The notes: generated by a model not told the origin, from the sequence alone. Shown: positions 7,216 to 31,955, counted from the stretch's first letter. The stretch is 31,966 bases of DNA from a virus (IMGVR_UViG_3300031800_000009:1-31966); one strand, 5' to 3'. A program made the numbers and translations.

Positions 7216-8496
7216 TTAGAGTTTGTCAGGGGTCAGGCTCCAGAGCTTCAGCGCATACTCGCGCTTGAGCAACCGACCGTTGTCGGCCTTTTCCTCGCCG
7301 GTTGCATTCTCCTCCGGCTTGCCGAGGCTGGTGATTGAGTTCTCATAATGCGCCTTGCTCACGTCCATCGAGTGGCCCGCAATCTGGTTGGTGAGTTCCA
7401 TATTGGAGTAGGCGTGTTTGTGGTAGCTGCAAAAGGCGTGGCGCAAGGCGTCCTTCGGCCACTTGTCCCATCCGGCATCCTTGTAGATTTTCTGGAACAG
7501 CGTCCGGTGCTCGCCCGCTTGCTTGGCGTTCGCCCGCCAGTTGCGCCACTTCAAGCCGCCCGTCCCGTCGTCGGGCAGGTAGCCGTCGGTGGGCTCCAGC
7601 CATTTGCGCAGCGGCCCGCAGTCGTCGATCATAATGACGCGAGGATAACCGCCCGTTTTTGGATCGTTGATTTTGATGTATCCCTCCTTGAGCGAAACGT
7701 CGTCGGCGGTCATGCGGTCAACCTCCTCCGGCCTGATGCCAGCGAATAAGCAGAGCGCGTAATAACTGATGGCCTCCGGCCTGACCTCGTTCACCTTGCG
7801 CAGCAGTCGCTTGAGGCTCTCAATGCTGAACAGGATTGGCGGGCGTTGGGTTTTCTTTTTGCGCTCAACCTTGGCCGCTGGATTGCTGCCGATGAACTCC
7901 TGCACCACGCACCATTCCAGAAACGTGTTGATGCCGCGCAAGCTGGTGTTGTAGCTGGTCGGGTTCTCGTACCGCTCAAGATGCGCCTCAATGTGCAGCT
8001 TCGTCACGTCGGCAACCGCGACCTTGCCCGCCTGTTTGATGAGCCCGTCGATGCCGGTGCAGTAGCCAACAACGGTGGACTGCTTCACGCCCGCCTTATT
8101 CTTGGCCGCTCTGAATTGCTTCTTGGCCTCCTCCAGCTTCACACCATTGCTGGGTGCGATGGGTGCGGCGGTGGCAACCGTCAGGCCGTTGCCGTTGCCG
8201 TTGCGGTGAGCCTCAAAGAAGGTCAAAGCCTCGCCGAGATCATAACCGCCATCCTGCGAGCGGAGGTAAGCCGCCGAGAGGCGAATGCGGTCGTCGCTGC
8301 CAAGGCCAATGAAGGTGTCGCCGAGCTTGGCGTATGCGTCGTTCTCGTTGCGTGCGAAATTGGTTGCGGGCTCAATGTCGCGGAAGAATTTCTGCACCCG
8401 TCGCGGCCCAAGCCGCCCGTAGACAAAGAAACGCTCTTGACCAAGTTGGTTGTCCTTGGCGGTGACGGTTAGTTTTCCGAATGTGATTGGTGTCAT
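7216..8496 (-). CDS. int: Tyrosine recombinase (phage integrase)
   Basis: A 426-residue integrase that recombines phage attP with a host attB. The N-terminal arm and core-binding region run to about residue 215 (including a SAM-like helical segment, KQSTVVGYCTGIDGLIKQAG). The catalytic domain shows FAGIRPEEVDRM (Arg near 255), a Lys in the following hairpin (DPKTGG, near 280), DALRHAFCSYH (Arg near 352), AGHSMD (His near 375) and AHYENS (nucleophile Tyr near 384). The usual His of the H-x-x-R box is replaced by Lys, a tolerated variation. The gene ends in a strong terminator, and a tRNA-Pro fragment lies about 1 kb upstream, marking attP. Confidence 0.93.
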   Translation of the reverse strand: MTPITFGKLTVTAKDNQLGQERFFVYGRLGPRRVQKFFRDIEPATNFARNENDAYAKLGDTFIGLGSDDRIRLSAAYLRSQDGGYDLGEALTFFEAHRNGNGNGLTVATAAPIAPSNGVKLEEAKKQFRAAKNKAGVKQSTVVGYCTGIDGLIKQAGKVAVADVTKLHIEAHLERYENPTSYNTSLRGINTFLEWCVVQEFIGSNPAAKVERKKKTQRPPILFSIESLKRLLRKVNEVRPEAISYYALCLFAGIRPEEVDRMTADDVSLKEGYIKINDPKTGGYPRVIMIDDCGPLRKWLEPTDGYLPDDGTGGLKWRNWRANAKQAGEHRTLFQKIYKDAGWDKWPKDALRHAFCSYHKHAYSNMELTNQIAGHSMDVSKAHYENSITSLGKPEENATGEEKADNGRLLKREYALKLWSLTPDKL

Positions 8497-27518: not shown

Positions 27519-29330
27519 TCACCGCCATTCGTTGATGTATCCGCCTCCGCGCCGTTTCGGCTTGATGGTCGCCTCGTCCTCATCATTGCCCTTCGCCATC
27601 AGCCGCGCGATGGCGTCAAAGTTTGGGTTCAGGATTTCCAGAGCGGCCATATTGTAAACGCGAATATCGAGTGCCTCGTTGCGCGGCCTGATCTTGCGGT
27701 AATAGCGAATGGCAAAGCCGTTCTGGTATTTGGTGCGCACCTCCTCGGCGGTCAGTTGCTTAAAATACTCCTCGTCGTATCCGTACCCGTTTGGGAAATG
27801 TTGAAAGCCCGCGCCCTCGTCCTCGATCTGCAACCGCGCAAATAGTGTGTCCTTGATCGCGCCGGTTCCCAAAGTCCAGAGCAGCACCCGCGCATTCTTG
27901 ATGCTGCGCTTGTGGATCGGTGGCGCACCCCGTACCGGCGAGCCCTTCACCGCATAAATCCTGTTGGCCGCTCGCGCCCTCGTATATTCGTAGACCCTGC
28001 TTGTTGCATAACCAGAGTCGATGGCGGTGGCCGCTATCTTCATCACCGAGCCAGCCGGATGGTTCCAAGTTTTCGCAAGGTGCTTGTCCAAGACATCCCA
28101 CACCCCTCGCTGCTCCGGCGATCCAGCCAGCACTTTGTATTCGATGCCCCAGCTCTCGCCGTCGGCAGCGTGACCCAGCACCTCGACCTCAAGCCGATCG
28201 TCCTGGACATCAACCGCCGCAGTCAAAACCATAACGCCTTCCGGTAACATATCACCGCCATACAATTCGCAGCGCGCAAGCAACGGCTCGCTCTCAACCT
28301 TGTCGCCTTCATCCTCCCACGTCTCGGCCAAGAACGTGTTGACCCAAACCTTGAGCATCTGCTTTCCGCTGGTCTTTGCCGCAAGGAAATTCTCGGCGAA
28401 CTCATGCAGGTAGGTTGTGAACTGCCGCTTCTTTCCCATTATCCTATACAGGCCGGAAAGGTGGTAGCCGCGCACCCTGCGGTTCGGGTAGGTCGCGCGC
28501 CACTCGCCTTTCAAAATCATCTTGATGCGGTCGGCGTCCTCGATGTCCTCGTTGCAATGTTTGCAAACGTAAACCGCCTCGCTGGTCTTGTCCTCTGGCC
28601 AAGTGACTTGGCTCCACTCCAGCTTGTGAAATGATTTGCAATGCGGGCAGGGACAGTACCAATACCGCTGGTCGGAGTCCTCGAAATATTTCTCAATCCG
28701 GCTCGCGTTCTTGATGGTGGGCGTGCTGGCCTTTATCAGAGTGGCGTCGTGGAAGTTTGAAGCGCGCGCGTCGGCCAACATACAGGGGTCGCCCTCGGTT
28801 CCTGCGCTCGCCTCGTAACTATCGATCTCATCCTGCAAGACCACGCGCGTGGAAATCTGCCGGAGCGATGCGGGTGAGTTGCTGCCCGCGATCACCAGAA
28901 AACCGCCGGCATAATCCTTGCTCAATACGGTGTTGCCGGAATCGCGAGAGCGGGGGTCTTTGACCTTGCCGCGAAGGGCGGGCGTTTCGCGGAGCATCAT
29001 TGCCAGCTTCTTGGTTGACCACTTGCGCGCGGTGTCGAGCGTTGGGTAAACCGCAAGCATCGGCGAGGGGTTGAGGTGGATGAAGAAGCCAATGGCGTTG
29101 AGCAGGATTTCGGTCTTGCCCATCTGCGCGGCCCACATCAGAACCGTCTCGCCAACCGTCTCGTCGGTGAACGATTCCATCGGCTCCTTCTGGTACGGCA
29201 AGCGGTCGTTGCGAAACTTGCCCGCCTCCGGCGAAACGCCTCGGCCTAGGTAACGGTACGCCTCGGCCCACTCAGCCACGTTCATCTTCGGCGGCGGCCT
29301 CCAGAGGGTCGTTGCCCTCATCAAGTCCAT
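27519..29330 (-). CDS. terL: Terminase large subunit (GpA family)
   Basis: A 603-residue packaging ATPase/nuclease. The ATPase domain begins WRPPPKMNVAEWAE, typical of GpA; the Walker A-like segment is AAQMGKT (near residues 67-73) and the Walker B acidic pair is VVLQDEID (near 167-168). A zinc-finger-like CPCPHC and VCKHC pair lies near 225-260. The nuclease domain opens with AVDVQDDRLEVEV and includes AIDSGYATS. It cuts and pumps DNA into the prohead through the portal. ATG 29330 is chosen since it retains the family N-terminus and overlaps the small subunit by only 59 nt; ATG 29285 also has a GGAGG upstream. Confidence 0.93.
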   Translation of the reverse strand: MDLMRATTLWRPPPKMNVAEWAEAYRYLGRGVSPEAGKFRNDRLPYQKEPMESFTDETVGETVLMWAAQMGKTEILLNAIGFFIHLNPSPMLAVYPTLDTARKWSTKKLAMMLRETPALRGKVKDPRSRDSGNTVLSKDYAGGFLVIAGSNSPASLRQISTRVVLQDEIDSYEASAGTEGDPCMLADARASNFHDATLIKASTPTIKNASRIEKYFEDSDQRYWYCPCPHCKSFHKLEWSQVTWPEDKTSEAVYVCKHCNEDIEDADRIKMILKGEWRATYPNRRVRGYHLSGLYRIMGKKRQFTTYLHEFAENFLAAKTSGKQMLKVWVNTFLAETWEDEGDKVESEPLLARCELYGGDMLPEGVMVLTAAVDVQDDRLEVEVLGHAADGESWGIEYKVLAGSPEQRGVWDVLDKHLAKTWNHPAGSVMKIAATAIDSGYATSRVYEYTRARAANRIYAVKGSPVRGAPPIHKRSIKNARVLLWTLGTGAIKDTLFARLQIEDEGAGFQHFPNGYGYDEEYFKQLTAEEVRTKYQNGFAIRYYRKIRPRNEALDIRVYNMAALEILNPNFDAIARLMAKGNDEDEATIKPKRRGGGYINEWR

Positions 29331-29805
29331 CGTCAGTTTCGTCCTCCCTGATGCTCTCATAAGTTTTCCGCTTTGACAGTTCGGCCAAAGCCTCCTCGAT
29401 CTCCTTCCGGAGTTCCTGCCGTTGGTGCTCGTCAAACCCCAGCCGCCCGCTGATCTTGTTCTCAAGGCCAAGCAACTTCTGGCGCGCGATCATCACCACG
29501 CCCTGCCAAGCCCGCACCACGCTCTCGGCCTCAAGCGAATTGCCCATCATCCGCGCCAGCTTCAGTTCCTCAATCTTGCGCTCGGCGGTCAGCTTCTTGC
29601 GCTTCTCGTCCTCAATGGATGAGTGCCGCTTTTTTGACAGTTCGCGGTAGTAACGAAACAGTCCCTGCAACGTCGCCGCGAATTGATACTGCCCGTTGAG
29701 CGGCGGCGGAAAGTAACCGTCCTTTGCTATCTGCCGATGGCGGCGGTCAGTAACTCCTGTCAGCGCGCAGAGTTTTTCTGCGTCGATGGTTTGGGACTCT
29801 GCCAC
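29272..29805 (-). CDS. terS: Terminase small subunit (Nu1-like)
   Basis: A 177-residue DNA-recognition subunit of the terminase. The N-terminus has a Nu1-like winged helix: DAEKLCALTGVTDRRHRQIA, followed by a strand and YFPPPLNGQYQFA. The centre is a helical charged segment (KRKKLTAERKIEELKLARMM) used for oligomerisation and TerL binding. The C-terminus is very acidic (DETDDGLDEGNDPLE). It begins with GTG overlapping the upstream TAG (TAGTG) and overlaps terL. Gene order with terL, gpW-like and portal is lambda-like. Confidence 0.85.
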   Translation of the reverse strand: MAESQTIDAEKLCALTGVTDRRHRQIAKDGYFPPPLNGQYQFAATLQGLFRYYRELSKKRHSSIEDEKRKKLTAERKIEELKLARMMGNSLEAESVVRAWQGVVMIARQKLLGLENKISGRLGFDEHQRQELRKEIEEALAELSKRKTYESIREDETDDGLDEGNDPLEAAAEDERG

Positions 29806-30665
29806 TACTTGCTGCGCGCCTTCCGTTGCTGCTCGATATACTCCTCCCGCGCTCCGAATTTCTCCCGCTCGGTTCTGCGCTTGCGTATCCGCAACAACTC
29901 ATCTGTCACCGTCTCGCACTTCCACATTTGTTTCAGCGAATAATAAACGATTGTGTAGCGCATCGCATCCACGCGCTGGCGGCGGATCGGTGTTACGCCA
30001 TGAAGGATTCCTTGGCCGTCAAACATGAAAAATGTGCTGTCCTTTAATTCAATGCCAAGACCAAATTCCGGCAGCGCAAGATGCCCGCCCTCGATGCCGT
30101 CCTTGAGCGTTATCATACCCGACCAAACAGCCTTGTAGTTGCCAGCGTCAAAGTGATATTTGAGAGGATTATTCTTGTTCACAATTCCGCTGGTGAAGGG
30201 CATCCCGTCAACGCGATATTGCGCGTTCAAATTCTTCTCAGACATTGCATCGTGATAGCAATAAAGCGACGGGTTGAGGTCGGAGTAATATTGAGCAATC
30301 AGCTTGCCCGCATCCATAAGGGCGGTGTGCTCCCTCGGAAATTCTCCGGCCAGTTTCGTTGCAGAGCAGAAGTCTTTCCGGAGAGCCTTGCGCGGCTCAA
30401 AGCCAAAGACTCTGCTGGTTGTAACCATTCCGCCAGTGCGGCTTTGCAAGCTGTACGGAATCCGGTTGCATACATCCCTCACCCACTCCAGAGATTCAGT
30501 TGGGGTGATGTAAAGCAGGATGAGTTTGCCGTCCTCATAAAGCGCGCAGTCATTTGTAATGAGGCGGTCATAATCATCCTCCACTGCGCTTCGCTTTTTG
30601 TATTCAGCCAGGGCGACCCCTCGCCGCTCAACGTCGATGCGTTCCGGTTCAGCTTGGCTCGTCAT
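29805..30665 (-). CDS. TET/JBP-like 2-oxoglutarate/Fe(II) dioxygenase
   Basis: A 286-residue oxygenase of the double-stranded beta-helix class. The iron ligands are visible in order: H-x-D in LKYHFDAGN (near residues 171-173), then GGHLALPEFG, then the distal His in QGILHGVTPI (near 222), and the 2-oxoglutarate Arg in AMRYTIVYYS (near 236). The HxD-x-x-N core, GG-x-L strand and R-Y-x-x-x-Y ending match TET/JBP nucleic-acid oxygenases, which hydroxylate 5-methylcytosine or thymine. A phage member next to an FkbM methyltransferase and a ParB-like protein suggests modified phage DNA. Other protein hydroxylases share the fold, so the substrate is inferred. ATG 30665 lacks a clear Shine-Dalgarno. 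Confidence 0.75.
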   Translation of the reverse strand: MTSQAEPERIDVERRGVALAEYKKRSAVEDDYDRLITNDCALYEDGKLILLYITPTESLEWVRDVCNRIPYSLQSRTGGMVTTSRVFGFEPRKALRKDFCSATKLAGEFPREHTALMDAGKLIAQYYSDLNPSLYCYHDAMSEKNLNAQYRVDGMPFTSGIVNKNNPLKYHFDAGNYKAVWSGMITLKDGIEGGHLALPEFGLGIELKDSTFFMFDGQGILHGVTPIRRQRVDAMRYTIVYYSLKQMWKCETVTDELLRIRKRRTEREKFGAREEYIEQQRKARSK

Positions 30666-31332
30666 AATTGATTGCAAAGATTATGTCGTCGATGAAGCCG
30701 CCCCAAAGTCCTGCGATCCCGTTGTGCTTCTGGTTGTGGTAGCTCTTGGGATACTTGACCACCTCAAAGGACTGCTTGAGGGTTTCCACTATCCTAAAAA
30801 ATTTCGCCATATCCCGCTCCAAGGTAAACGAGTACTCGAACACCAGCTTGCGGATTCCTTTCCATTCCTTTTTCTTTTCAAGTATCTCAACCTCTGCGCC
30901 TTCAATATCCATCTTGACGCAATCAATGTCTGGATGCTCCTTGAGCAAGTCGTCAATCGCCCTGACCTCAACCGCTATGGATGTTGCCCCTCGCTTATAT
31001 TTTCGCAGCAACGAATGCCGCCAAGTATTTGGAGCAATGTTGAAAGCCGCCCTGCCTCCTCTCCAGCCCACCGCAGCATTGCAGATTGTTATGTTGTGGC
31101 CGCTTGCGTTTTTCTTCAGCAACTCAAAGTTGCTCGGCTCTGGTTCATAAGCGTAAACCTTCGCTGCGCCGTTCTCGATTGCGTACAGTGAAAAGCAACC
31201 GATGTGGCCACCAGCATCAAGCCATACGTCGCCGCTTTCAATTCCGAATCCAATCATGCGCTTCTTGTAAGCGTTCTTGGTGAAGATTTCGGCAATCACC
31301 TTTTCGTCGGTTGTGCCTTCGCGGTAAATCAT
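30649..31332 (-). CDS. FkbM-family methyltransferase
   Basis: A 227-residue S-adenosylmethionine-dependent methyltransferase. The SAM motif is DVWLDAGGHIGCFSLYA (near residues 35-51), with YAYEPEPSNFELL as motif II and CVKMDIEGAEVEIL (near 138-150) as the family signature. FkbM enzymes usually O-methylate sugars or polyketides. Here the enzyme is translationally coupled to a ParB-like gene (ATGA) and overlaps the dioxygenase, so a plausible acceptor is the hydroxyl group made by the dioxygenase on a DNA base. That is inference. Methylation of a virion glycan is an alternative. Confidence 0.85.
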   Translation of the reverse strand: MIYREGTTDEKVIAEIFTKNAYKKRMIGFGIESGDVWLDAGGHIGCFSLYAIENGAAKVYAYEPEPSNFELLKKNASGHNITICNAAVGWRGGRAAFNIAPNTWRHSLLRKYKRGATSIAVEVRAIDDLLKEHPDIDCVKMDIEGAEVEILEKKKEWKGIRKLVFEYSFTLERDMAKFFRIVETLKQSFEVVKYPKSYHNQKHNGIAGLWGGFIDDIIFAINYDEPS

Positions 31333-31955
31333 TCCACACTTTCGGCGTGATGGTTTAGGGCAAGAGTGAAAGCCTCTGTATTGGTTTCAAGGCTTTCCGC
31401 CGCCTTCACCTTTTCCAAGGTTTCGCAGATGCCGGCATATTCCTCACTGTCATAAAGCAGGACAATCTGCCGCACCGATGTTGCTGAATACTGCTCCTCA
31501 AAACGCCTTCCAACTTCACCGTCACCGGCAAATTTCACGCTGTCTGTATTATATTCCAGCGGCTGCAATGCGCTCTCAAGTTCCTCCAGTTGCTTCTTGG
31601 TAAAGCCTGTTGTTTCTATCCTGACCGAATCGGCCTCCAGTTCTCCAAGCAGATTTGTAAGTGCGGCGTTGTCCATCGTTGCAAGCTCGGCAATCCTGTT
31701 GTCAGCAATCATGTGCGCCCACTCGTCGGCCTCGTTCTCAAAATCCTGAAAATCGACCGGCACCATTTTCTGCTTCAGCAAGCGAGCCGCCTCAAGTCGG
31801 CCATGACCAGACACAATGAATCCGGATTGATTTGAAACCTGAATGCTGTTGCGCCAACCGCGATGGCGAATAATTTCTGCAAGCAATGCAATCTGCGCGT
31901 CGCTATGCCGGTTGGGGTTCTTGGGGTTTGGTACTAGCGACTCCAAGGCCACCAT
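31329..31955 (-). CDS. ParB-like domain protein (start near window edge)
   Basis: A protein of at least 208 residues. Residues about 1-65 form a ParB/sulfiredoxin-type domain: ESLVPNPKNPNRHSDAQI, SNQSGFIVSGHGRLEAARLL (GHGR motif near 50-53) and KMVPVDF. Then comes the MIADNRIAELATMDNAALTN segment common in phage ParB-domain proteins that accompany or are fused to DNA methyltransferases. The C-terminal half is charged and helical. Such domains bind nucleotides and sometimes act as nucleases. ATG 31955 fits the domain edge, but the frame stays open to the window end, so the true start may be upstream. It is coupled to the FkbM gene. Confidence 0.82.
   Translation of the reverse strand: MVALESLVPNPKNPNRHSDAQIALLAEIIRHRGWRNSIQVSNQSGFIVSGHGRLEAARLLKQKMVPVDFQDFENEADEWAHMIADNRIAELATMDNAALTNLLGELEADSVRIETTGFTKKQLEELESALQPLEYNTDSVKFAGDGEVGRRFEEQYSATSVRQIVLLYDSEEYAGICETLEKVKAAESLETNTEAFTLALNHHAESVE

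Follow-up and report, generated by a model that had tools for sequence, protein, structure and literature searches.

A candidate TET/JBP-FkbM base-hypermodification cassette next to the terminase genes of an IMG/VR virus

Described relatives and gene layout

In the base J pathway of kinetoplastids, JBP1/2 hydroxylate thymine in DNA, after which a glucosyltransferase decorates the hydroxyl. The pathway that we propose below resembles it in combining TET/JBP hydroxylation of thymine with later decoration of the hydroxyl, whereas base J arises by glucosylation in a eukaryotic nucleus, with neither a ParB protein nor O-methylation. Among phages, operons bringing together TET/JBP, ParB, glycosyltransferases, kinases and amino-acid transferases were reportedly described by Iyer et al. 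in 2009 and 2013, and the phage 5mC TET pathways are said, in the accounts of Burke et al. from 2021 and Pyle et al. from 2024, to pair with a C5-methyltransferase and glycosyltransferases. In these pathways, as proposed here for our locus, a TET-made hydroxymethyl base is modified further; they include a C5-methyltransferase, whereas none was seen in the sequence that we analysed, where the decorating enzyme is itself a methyltransferase.

That sequence, hereafter the window, is the whole stretch under study and an entire linear IMG/VR virus record of 31,966 bases. Mycobacteriophage Baee, with the arrangement ParB-TET-TAGT(-PIG-L deacetylase)-terminase, resembles it in placing ParB and then TET before TerS/TerL, and the Baee TET is homologous to the window's, at 29% identity when aligned in full and 34.5% in a local match, whereas Baee decorates with the TET-associated glycosyltransferase TAGT plus a GlcNAc deacetylase and the window carries an FkbM-family methyltransferase. 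The TAGT and PIG-L GlcNAc deacetylase that follow the Baee TET (L035:1713-3031) suggest a glucosamine-type decorated base. Rhodococcus phage Tonitrus (ParB, TET, ADDT/aGPT-Pplase2 and 5hmU DNA kinase) holds a possible thymidine-hypermodification system according to its authors (PMC11955845); it shares with the window ParB, a homologous TET and, by our prediction, a hydroxymethyl base as the starting point of decoration, but uses a kinase and an amino-acid transferase, neither of which lies beside the window's TET. The CmoA/CmoX/CmoY genes of Synechococcus phage S-B43 form a two-step carboxymethylcytosine system, and ParB-domain proteins often accompany such base-modification systems of phages (PMC12783734). 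The window cassette would be alike in its two-step base hypermodification and its ParB-domain companion; the handle is a carboxymethyl group from Cx-SAM in the S-B43 system, in contrast to a predicted TET-made hydroxymethyl group in the window.

All cassette and terminase genes discussed here lie on the minus strand and, in reading direction, run ParB-like, FkbM, TET/JBP, TerS, TerL and then head genes (Table 1). An earlier note on this DNA had described three overlapping genes beside terS, and the ORFs are indeed in that place, with overlaps of 4 nt between ParB and FkbM (ATGA), 17 nt between FkbM and TET (counted from the TET ATG) and 1 nt between TET and TerS (TAGTG, with the last base of the TET stop codon opening terS). 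A TTG at 30677 is a possible alternative start for TET and would lengthen the protein to 290 aa. Because only 11 bases separate the ParB ATG from the right end of the record, ParB may in reality start off the record, and any genes further upstream are unreadable. Because the TerL ORF called from its first TTG reaches back into terS, TerL probably starts near 29285 instead. The closest cultured-phage match of TerL is Roseobacter phage CRP-821 (44.7%), and an integrase at 7216-8496 suggests that the window phage is temperate.

Table 1 Cassette and terminase genes of the window
Gene product	Position	Strand	Length and supporting match
ParB-like protein	31329..31955	-	First cassette gene, 208 aa or more; phrog_620 E 1.5e-32, phrog_498 E 2.6e-35
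FkbM-family SAM-dependent methyltransferase, predicted O-methyltransferase	30649..31332	-	227 aa; PF05050 E 2.7e-19
TET/JBP Fe(II)/2-oxoglutarate dioxygenase, predicted DNA base hydroxylase	29805..30665	-	286 aa from ATG; PF12851 E 3.6e-14
Terminase small subunit	29272..29805	-	177 aa; phrog_57 E 8e-18
Terminase large subunit	27519..29471	-	ORF from first TTG; phrog_15 E 3.6e-224

The three cassette proteins

The window dioxygenase scored 52.8 bits against Pfam PF12851 (Tet_JBP), above the curated cut-off of 34.9. Its AlphaFold2 model (pLDDT 93.9) was compared with solved structures using Foldseek, where the first 26 PDB matches were all TET-family DNA dioxygenases, led by NgTet1 (E 7e-12) and including human TET2, CMD1 and CcTet, followed mainly by AlkB/FTO nucleic-acid demethylases; a sequence-only search of the PDB with the same protein returned nothing significant. 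In the numbering of the 290-aa form, the Fe(II) triad and the 2-oxoglutarate arginine (H175, D177, H226 and R240) show no variation across 156 homologues, 155 of which have N at position 180. Judged by Pfam, catalytic residues and predicted fold, the protein is a real TET/JBP enzyme, the identity for which the earlier note had suggested profile search and structure prediction as a check. The motif layout given there holds for HxD-x-x-N (H175-F-D177-A-G-N180), GG-x-L (G197-G198-x-L200) and the histidine (H226), but not for the R-Y..Y spacing, which is one residue longer (R240-Y241-x-x-x-x-Y246). A protein or prolyl hydroxylase, the alternative named in the same note, was rejected on the strength of the fold search, no protein hydroxylase heading the list. 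The enzyme is predicted to hydroxylate T or 5mC in DNA; a finer reading of its substrate from HxDxxN was dropped, as the motif does not separate thymine from 5-methylcytosine. At the search depth used, the TET family is almost confined to viruses, with only 5 relatives in ~85,000 bacterial/archaeal genomes vs 490 in viral contigs.

The second protein (METHYLTRANSFERASE) contains the FkbM domain PF05050 at 70.4 bits (cut-off 22.7), and its AlphaFold2 model (pLDDT 90.4) retrieved the class I SAM methyltransferase fold in Foldseek, including UbiG, with no clear closest match, so the FkbM methyltransferase identity proposed earlier is borne out by domain and fold. In a profile search, the solved 'Methyltransferase FkbM' 2py6 matched it at E 9e-4. 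FkbM enzymes are known as O-methyltransferases, and described relatives methylate sugar and polyketide hydroxyls; by analogy, transfer of an O-methyl group is the predicted activity of the window protein, its acceptor being taken from the family because no close FkbM relative has a solved structure. Eighteen residues are invariant in 45 TET-linked FkbM homologues. The KxDxEGxE core (K140, D142, E144, G145 and E147) is invariant among TET-linked FkbMs, with K140, D142, E144 and E147 also invariant in an unrelated control group of phage FkbMs and E166 likewise common to both groups, whereas a column comparison found R4, D9, W37, W104, R105 and S107 to be fixed in the TET-linked FkbMs and not in the control group.

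A ParB-like identity of the third protein is indicated by strong PHROG matches (phrog_620 and phrog_498), while its match to Pfam ParB_N PF02195 (E 0.026, 15.0 bits) falls below the cut-off of 26.3; the homologue in Pelagibacter phage HTVC112P is above that cut-off. In relatives, the ParBs encoded upstream of TET can be aligned with the window protein, also over a C-terminal RQIxL..Y...NT segment. This segment, which follows the ParB domain (window 31329-31500), is common to many TET-linked ParBs in the alignment and is possibly a docking module for modification enzymes. Proteins with ParB-like folds serve varied functions and in some cases bind NTPs (PMC12704722). The cassette ParB probably targets or organises the modification enzymes.

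Linkage and exchange of decorating enzymes across viral loci

In the window, TET shares an operon with ParB and a candidate decorating enzyme, the combination by which we define a TET-linked base-hypermodification cassette. Three linkage searches agreed with one another, and the one using FkbM alone is the least biased; it kept the best 80 of 328 matches and hence describes a subfamily rather than all FkbMs. Among these best 80 of 328, TET was found within the fetched stretch in 78 of 79 new viral loci and ParB also in 78 of 79, while both lay within three genes of FkbM in 54 of 56 different FkbM-called loci, the usual order being ParB-FkbM-TET as in the window. A control FkbM group, that of Synechococcus phage DSL-LC02, had TET in 0 of 70 loci and ParB in 0 of 70, and the FkbM of this phage adjoins tail-fibre and mannosyltransferase genes. 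The search with a TET query returned 31 loci, most with ParB directly upstream and a variable extra gene. Intergenic gaps within the cassette rarely exceed 10 nt. The ParB-FkbM-TET linkage is far beyond chance.

The cassette also occurs in cultured phages. In Pelagibacter phage HTVC112P, gp17-gp18-gp19 are ParB-TET-FkbM, and gp18, annotated as DnaJ/SNF2, matches Tet_JBP at 1.1e-29. Prochlorococcus phage MED4-184 has the window's order (CPAG_00033-34-35, ParB-FkbM-TET), with a small gene and then the large terminase next in line, and its TET matches Tet_JBP at 3.4e-6, below the curated cut-off; cyanophage MED4-117 is arranged in the same way, as judged by position and annotation. Public records mislabel such proteins, TETs appearing as 'queuine tRNA-ribosyltransferase' or 'DnaJ/SNF2' and ParB as 'DNA methylase' (L118:4318-6442, L117:5091-5999, L035:819-1697), and the label of phrog_6059 carries the same 'queuine tRNA-ribosyltransferase' error. 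A deazaguanine (queuine) pathway, as these record labels and phrog_6059 would have it, was rejected because the same proteins match Tet_JBP, and the 'DNA methylase' label of the cyanophage ParB was rejected because the protein matches only ParB_N in Pfam.

We compared decorating enzymes across 90 TET loci, gathered by a TET profile search with near-copies removed, plus loci fetched otherwise. These held TAGT in 38 cases, FkbM in 11 (some of them fetched through FkbM), another glycosyltransferase in 7 and one kinase type in 2, while 32 had none, a class that is too large, as several members hold kinases or amino-acid:DNA transferases missed by the profile. Two of these decorators (TAGT, FkbM, other glycosyltransferase or the kinase type) occurred together in 0 of the 90 loci. 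The FkbM slot is taken in sister cassettes by TAGT, by other glycosyltransferases, or by a kinase plus amino-acid:DNA transferase. Beside the window's TET there is no TAGT, with FkbM in that place, and neither a 5hmU DNA kinase nor ADDT, the neighbours being only ParB, FkbM and TerS (the record ends at ParB). Since it swaps with glycosyltransferases, kinases and transferases, FkbM would appear to be another means of decorating the hydroxymethyl base. The decorator type has switched repeatedly along the TET tree, with at least 13 changes for FkbM forced by supported branches, a rough number as the tree is a fast one with long branches. Such switching would be expected from an arms race over the camouflage of DNA.

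Base-modifying partners, which the earlier reading of the trio leads one to expect in related phages, were found there as TAGT glycosyltransferase, P-loop kinase and amino-acid:DNA transferase. Among the TETs nearest to the window's (L037-L040, up to 51% identity), that of L040 is preceded by a Ploopntkinase3-family kinase, the record holding L039 encodes ADDT, and L038 has TAGT instead. A Ploopntkinase3-type kinase is also present in L041 and probably in L043 (just under the cut-off), ADDT and an FAD oxidoreductase in L068, and ADDT in L115. At L159:4354-8467, a single run reads ParB - FkbM - ADDT (an amino acid:DNA transferase) - FAD/NAD-binding oxidoreductase - P-loop kinase - TET, a composite in which the FkbM cassette is merged with one of the thymidine-hypermodification type. 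Two proteins encoded between ParB and TET, one glycosyltransferase-like and without a Pfam or PHROG match (L003:7099-8001), the other of 299 aa and of no known family (L100:5096-5995), are possibly further new decorators. The 327,295-base viral contig IMGVR_UViG_3300028800_000001 (L101) carries two successive ParB-TET pairs plus ADDT; this is a contig of jumbo size, in contrast to a 2021 jumbo-phage survey that reported TET/JBP as absent (PMC7824862).

A proposed route to an O-methylated base

We consider it fairly probable that the trio is a protective hypermodification cassette, in which TET and FkbM would produce a 5-(methoxymethyl)pyrimidine, most likely 5-(methoxymethyl)uracil, with ParB as their partner. 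The proposal builds on computed family membership, fold, catalytic residues, conserved linkage and exchange of FkbM with other decorators, and its predicted elements are the DNA substrate, the thymine base, the order of steps, the O-methyl product, the role of ParB and protection. TET would act on a pyrimidine already incorporated in phage DNA and hydroxylate its 5-methyl group, with thymine to 5-hydroxymethyluracil as the likeliest conversion, and FkbM would then methylate the new hydroxyl using S-adenosylmethionine. An O-methylated hydroxymethyl product would fit the replacement of glycosyltransferases by FkbM in the cassette. The ParB-like protein would serve both enzymes as a partner, DNA-binding or NTP-switched, by targeting them to phage DNA or clamping them on it, and the mark, presumably made before packaging, would protect the DNA from host nucleases; the modified base could in this way hide phage DNA from host defences. 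As the cassette often lies directly before the terminase genes, it is also possible that the terminase recognises the putative modified base.

The modified base is more likely to be thymine than cytosine, given the rarity of C5-methyltransferases and the thymidine-hypermodification genes found alongside the nearest TETs; the Tonitrus cassette and the composite at L159 point the same way. The window record, a fragment, has no C5-cytosine methyltransferase (PF00145), and neither do HTVC112P and MED4-184; the enzyme was found in 2 of 36 FkbM-bearing records, most of which are fragments where it could be out of view. The 34 records without it suggest that these phages do not, as a rule, provide 5mC themselves. 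A dUMP/dCMP hydroxymethylase was rejected as the source of the hydroxymethyl base, with the thymidylate-synthase/hydroxymethylase family PF00303 in 0 of 20 tested records, and a regular association with N4/N6 methyltransferases was likewise rejected, PF01555 being present in 2 of 20 records and PF02086 in 0 of 20.

The same pathway on cytosine, in which 5mC made by the host or by an unseen phage enzyme is oxidised by TET to 5hmC and converted by FkbM to 5-(methoxymethyl)cytosine, draws on several observations: among solved structures, the nearest are of enzymes that act on 5mC, C5-methyltransferases do occur in a few TET records (G054, G056, G067 and G017), and the phage TETs tested by Burke et al. 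in 2021 reportedly oxidise 5mC. The scarcity of that methyltransferase in FkbM-bearing records, including those of two cultured phages, and the thymidine-type partners of sister cassettes nevertheless make cytosine unlikely in our view. It is distinctly unlikely that FkbM methylates some other acceptor, be it a sugar, amino acid or carboxylate on the base or another DNA group. Such acceptors would suit the known FkbM relatives acting on sugar and polyketide hydroxyls, and in L159, where ADDT and a kinase accompany FkbM, one would expect the final acceptor to differ from a bare hydroxymethyl; however, the window and most FkbM cassettes have no adjoining glycosyltransferase, kinase or amino-acid transferase, and FkbM and a glycosyltransferase co-occur in 0 of 90 loci.

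One could further suppose that the trio modifies protein, RNA or a surface glycan and adjoins the terminase for operon convenience, considering that the 2OG oxygenase and FkbM superfamilies include many non-DNA enzymes and that ParB-like folds are functionally varied (PMC12704722). This is very improbable when set against the 26 leading structural matches, all DNA dioxygenases, the membership of FkbM's exchange partners (TAGT, kinases and amino-acid:DNA transferases) in DNA-modifying families, and the phage FkbM group beside tail-fibre/sugar-transferase genes, which is without TET and ParB in 70 of 70 loci. We retain a thymine-directed TET and FkbM pathway as the preferred reading.

TET/ParB/glycosyltransferase cassettes of phages are known, whereas the widespread FkbM decorator and its predicted product are new, unless already contained in Iyer et al. 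2013. The literature found, which covers the field in part, describes no methoxymethyl pyrimidines in DNA and, with Iyer et al. 2013 outside that coverage, no FkbM paired with TET/JBP in phages; the proposed O-methylated base appears not to have been reported from nature. We suggest, tentatively, that 5-(methoxymethyl)uracil or -cytosine may be a natural base made by TET and FkbM in many environmental phages, and the first case of an O-methyl-capped, TET-made hydroxyl. If true, this would be a new chemical class of natural DNA base, bearing a small uncharged ether cap rather than a sugar or amino acid, and TET would be a general platform on which phages swap decorating enzymes. The annotations of TETs as 'queuine tRNA-ribosyltransferase' or 'DnaJ' and of the cyanophage ParB as 'DNA methylase' would likewise be corrected. 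Because the cassette is carried by the cultured phages HTVC112P, MED4-184 and MED4-117, the proposed chemistry is accessible.
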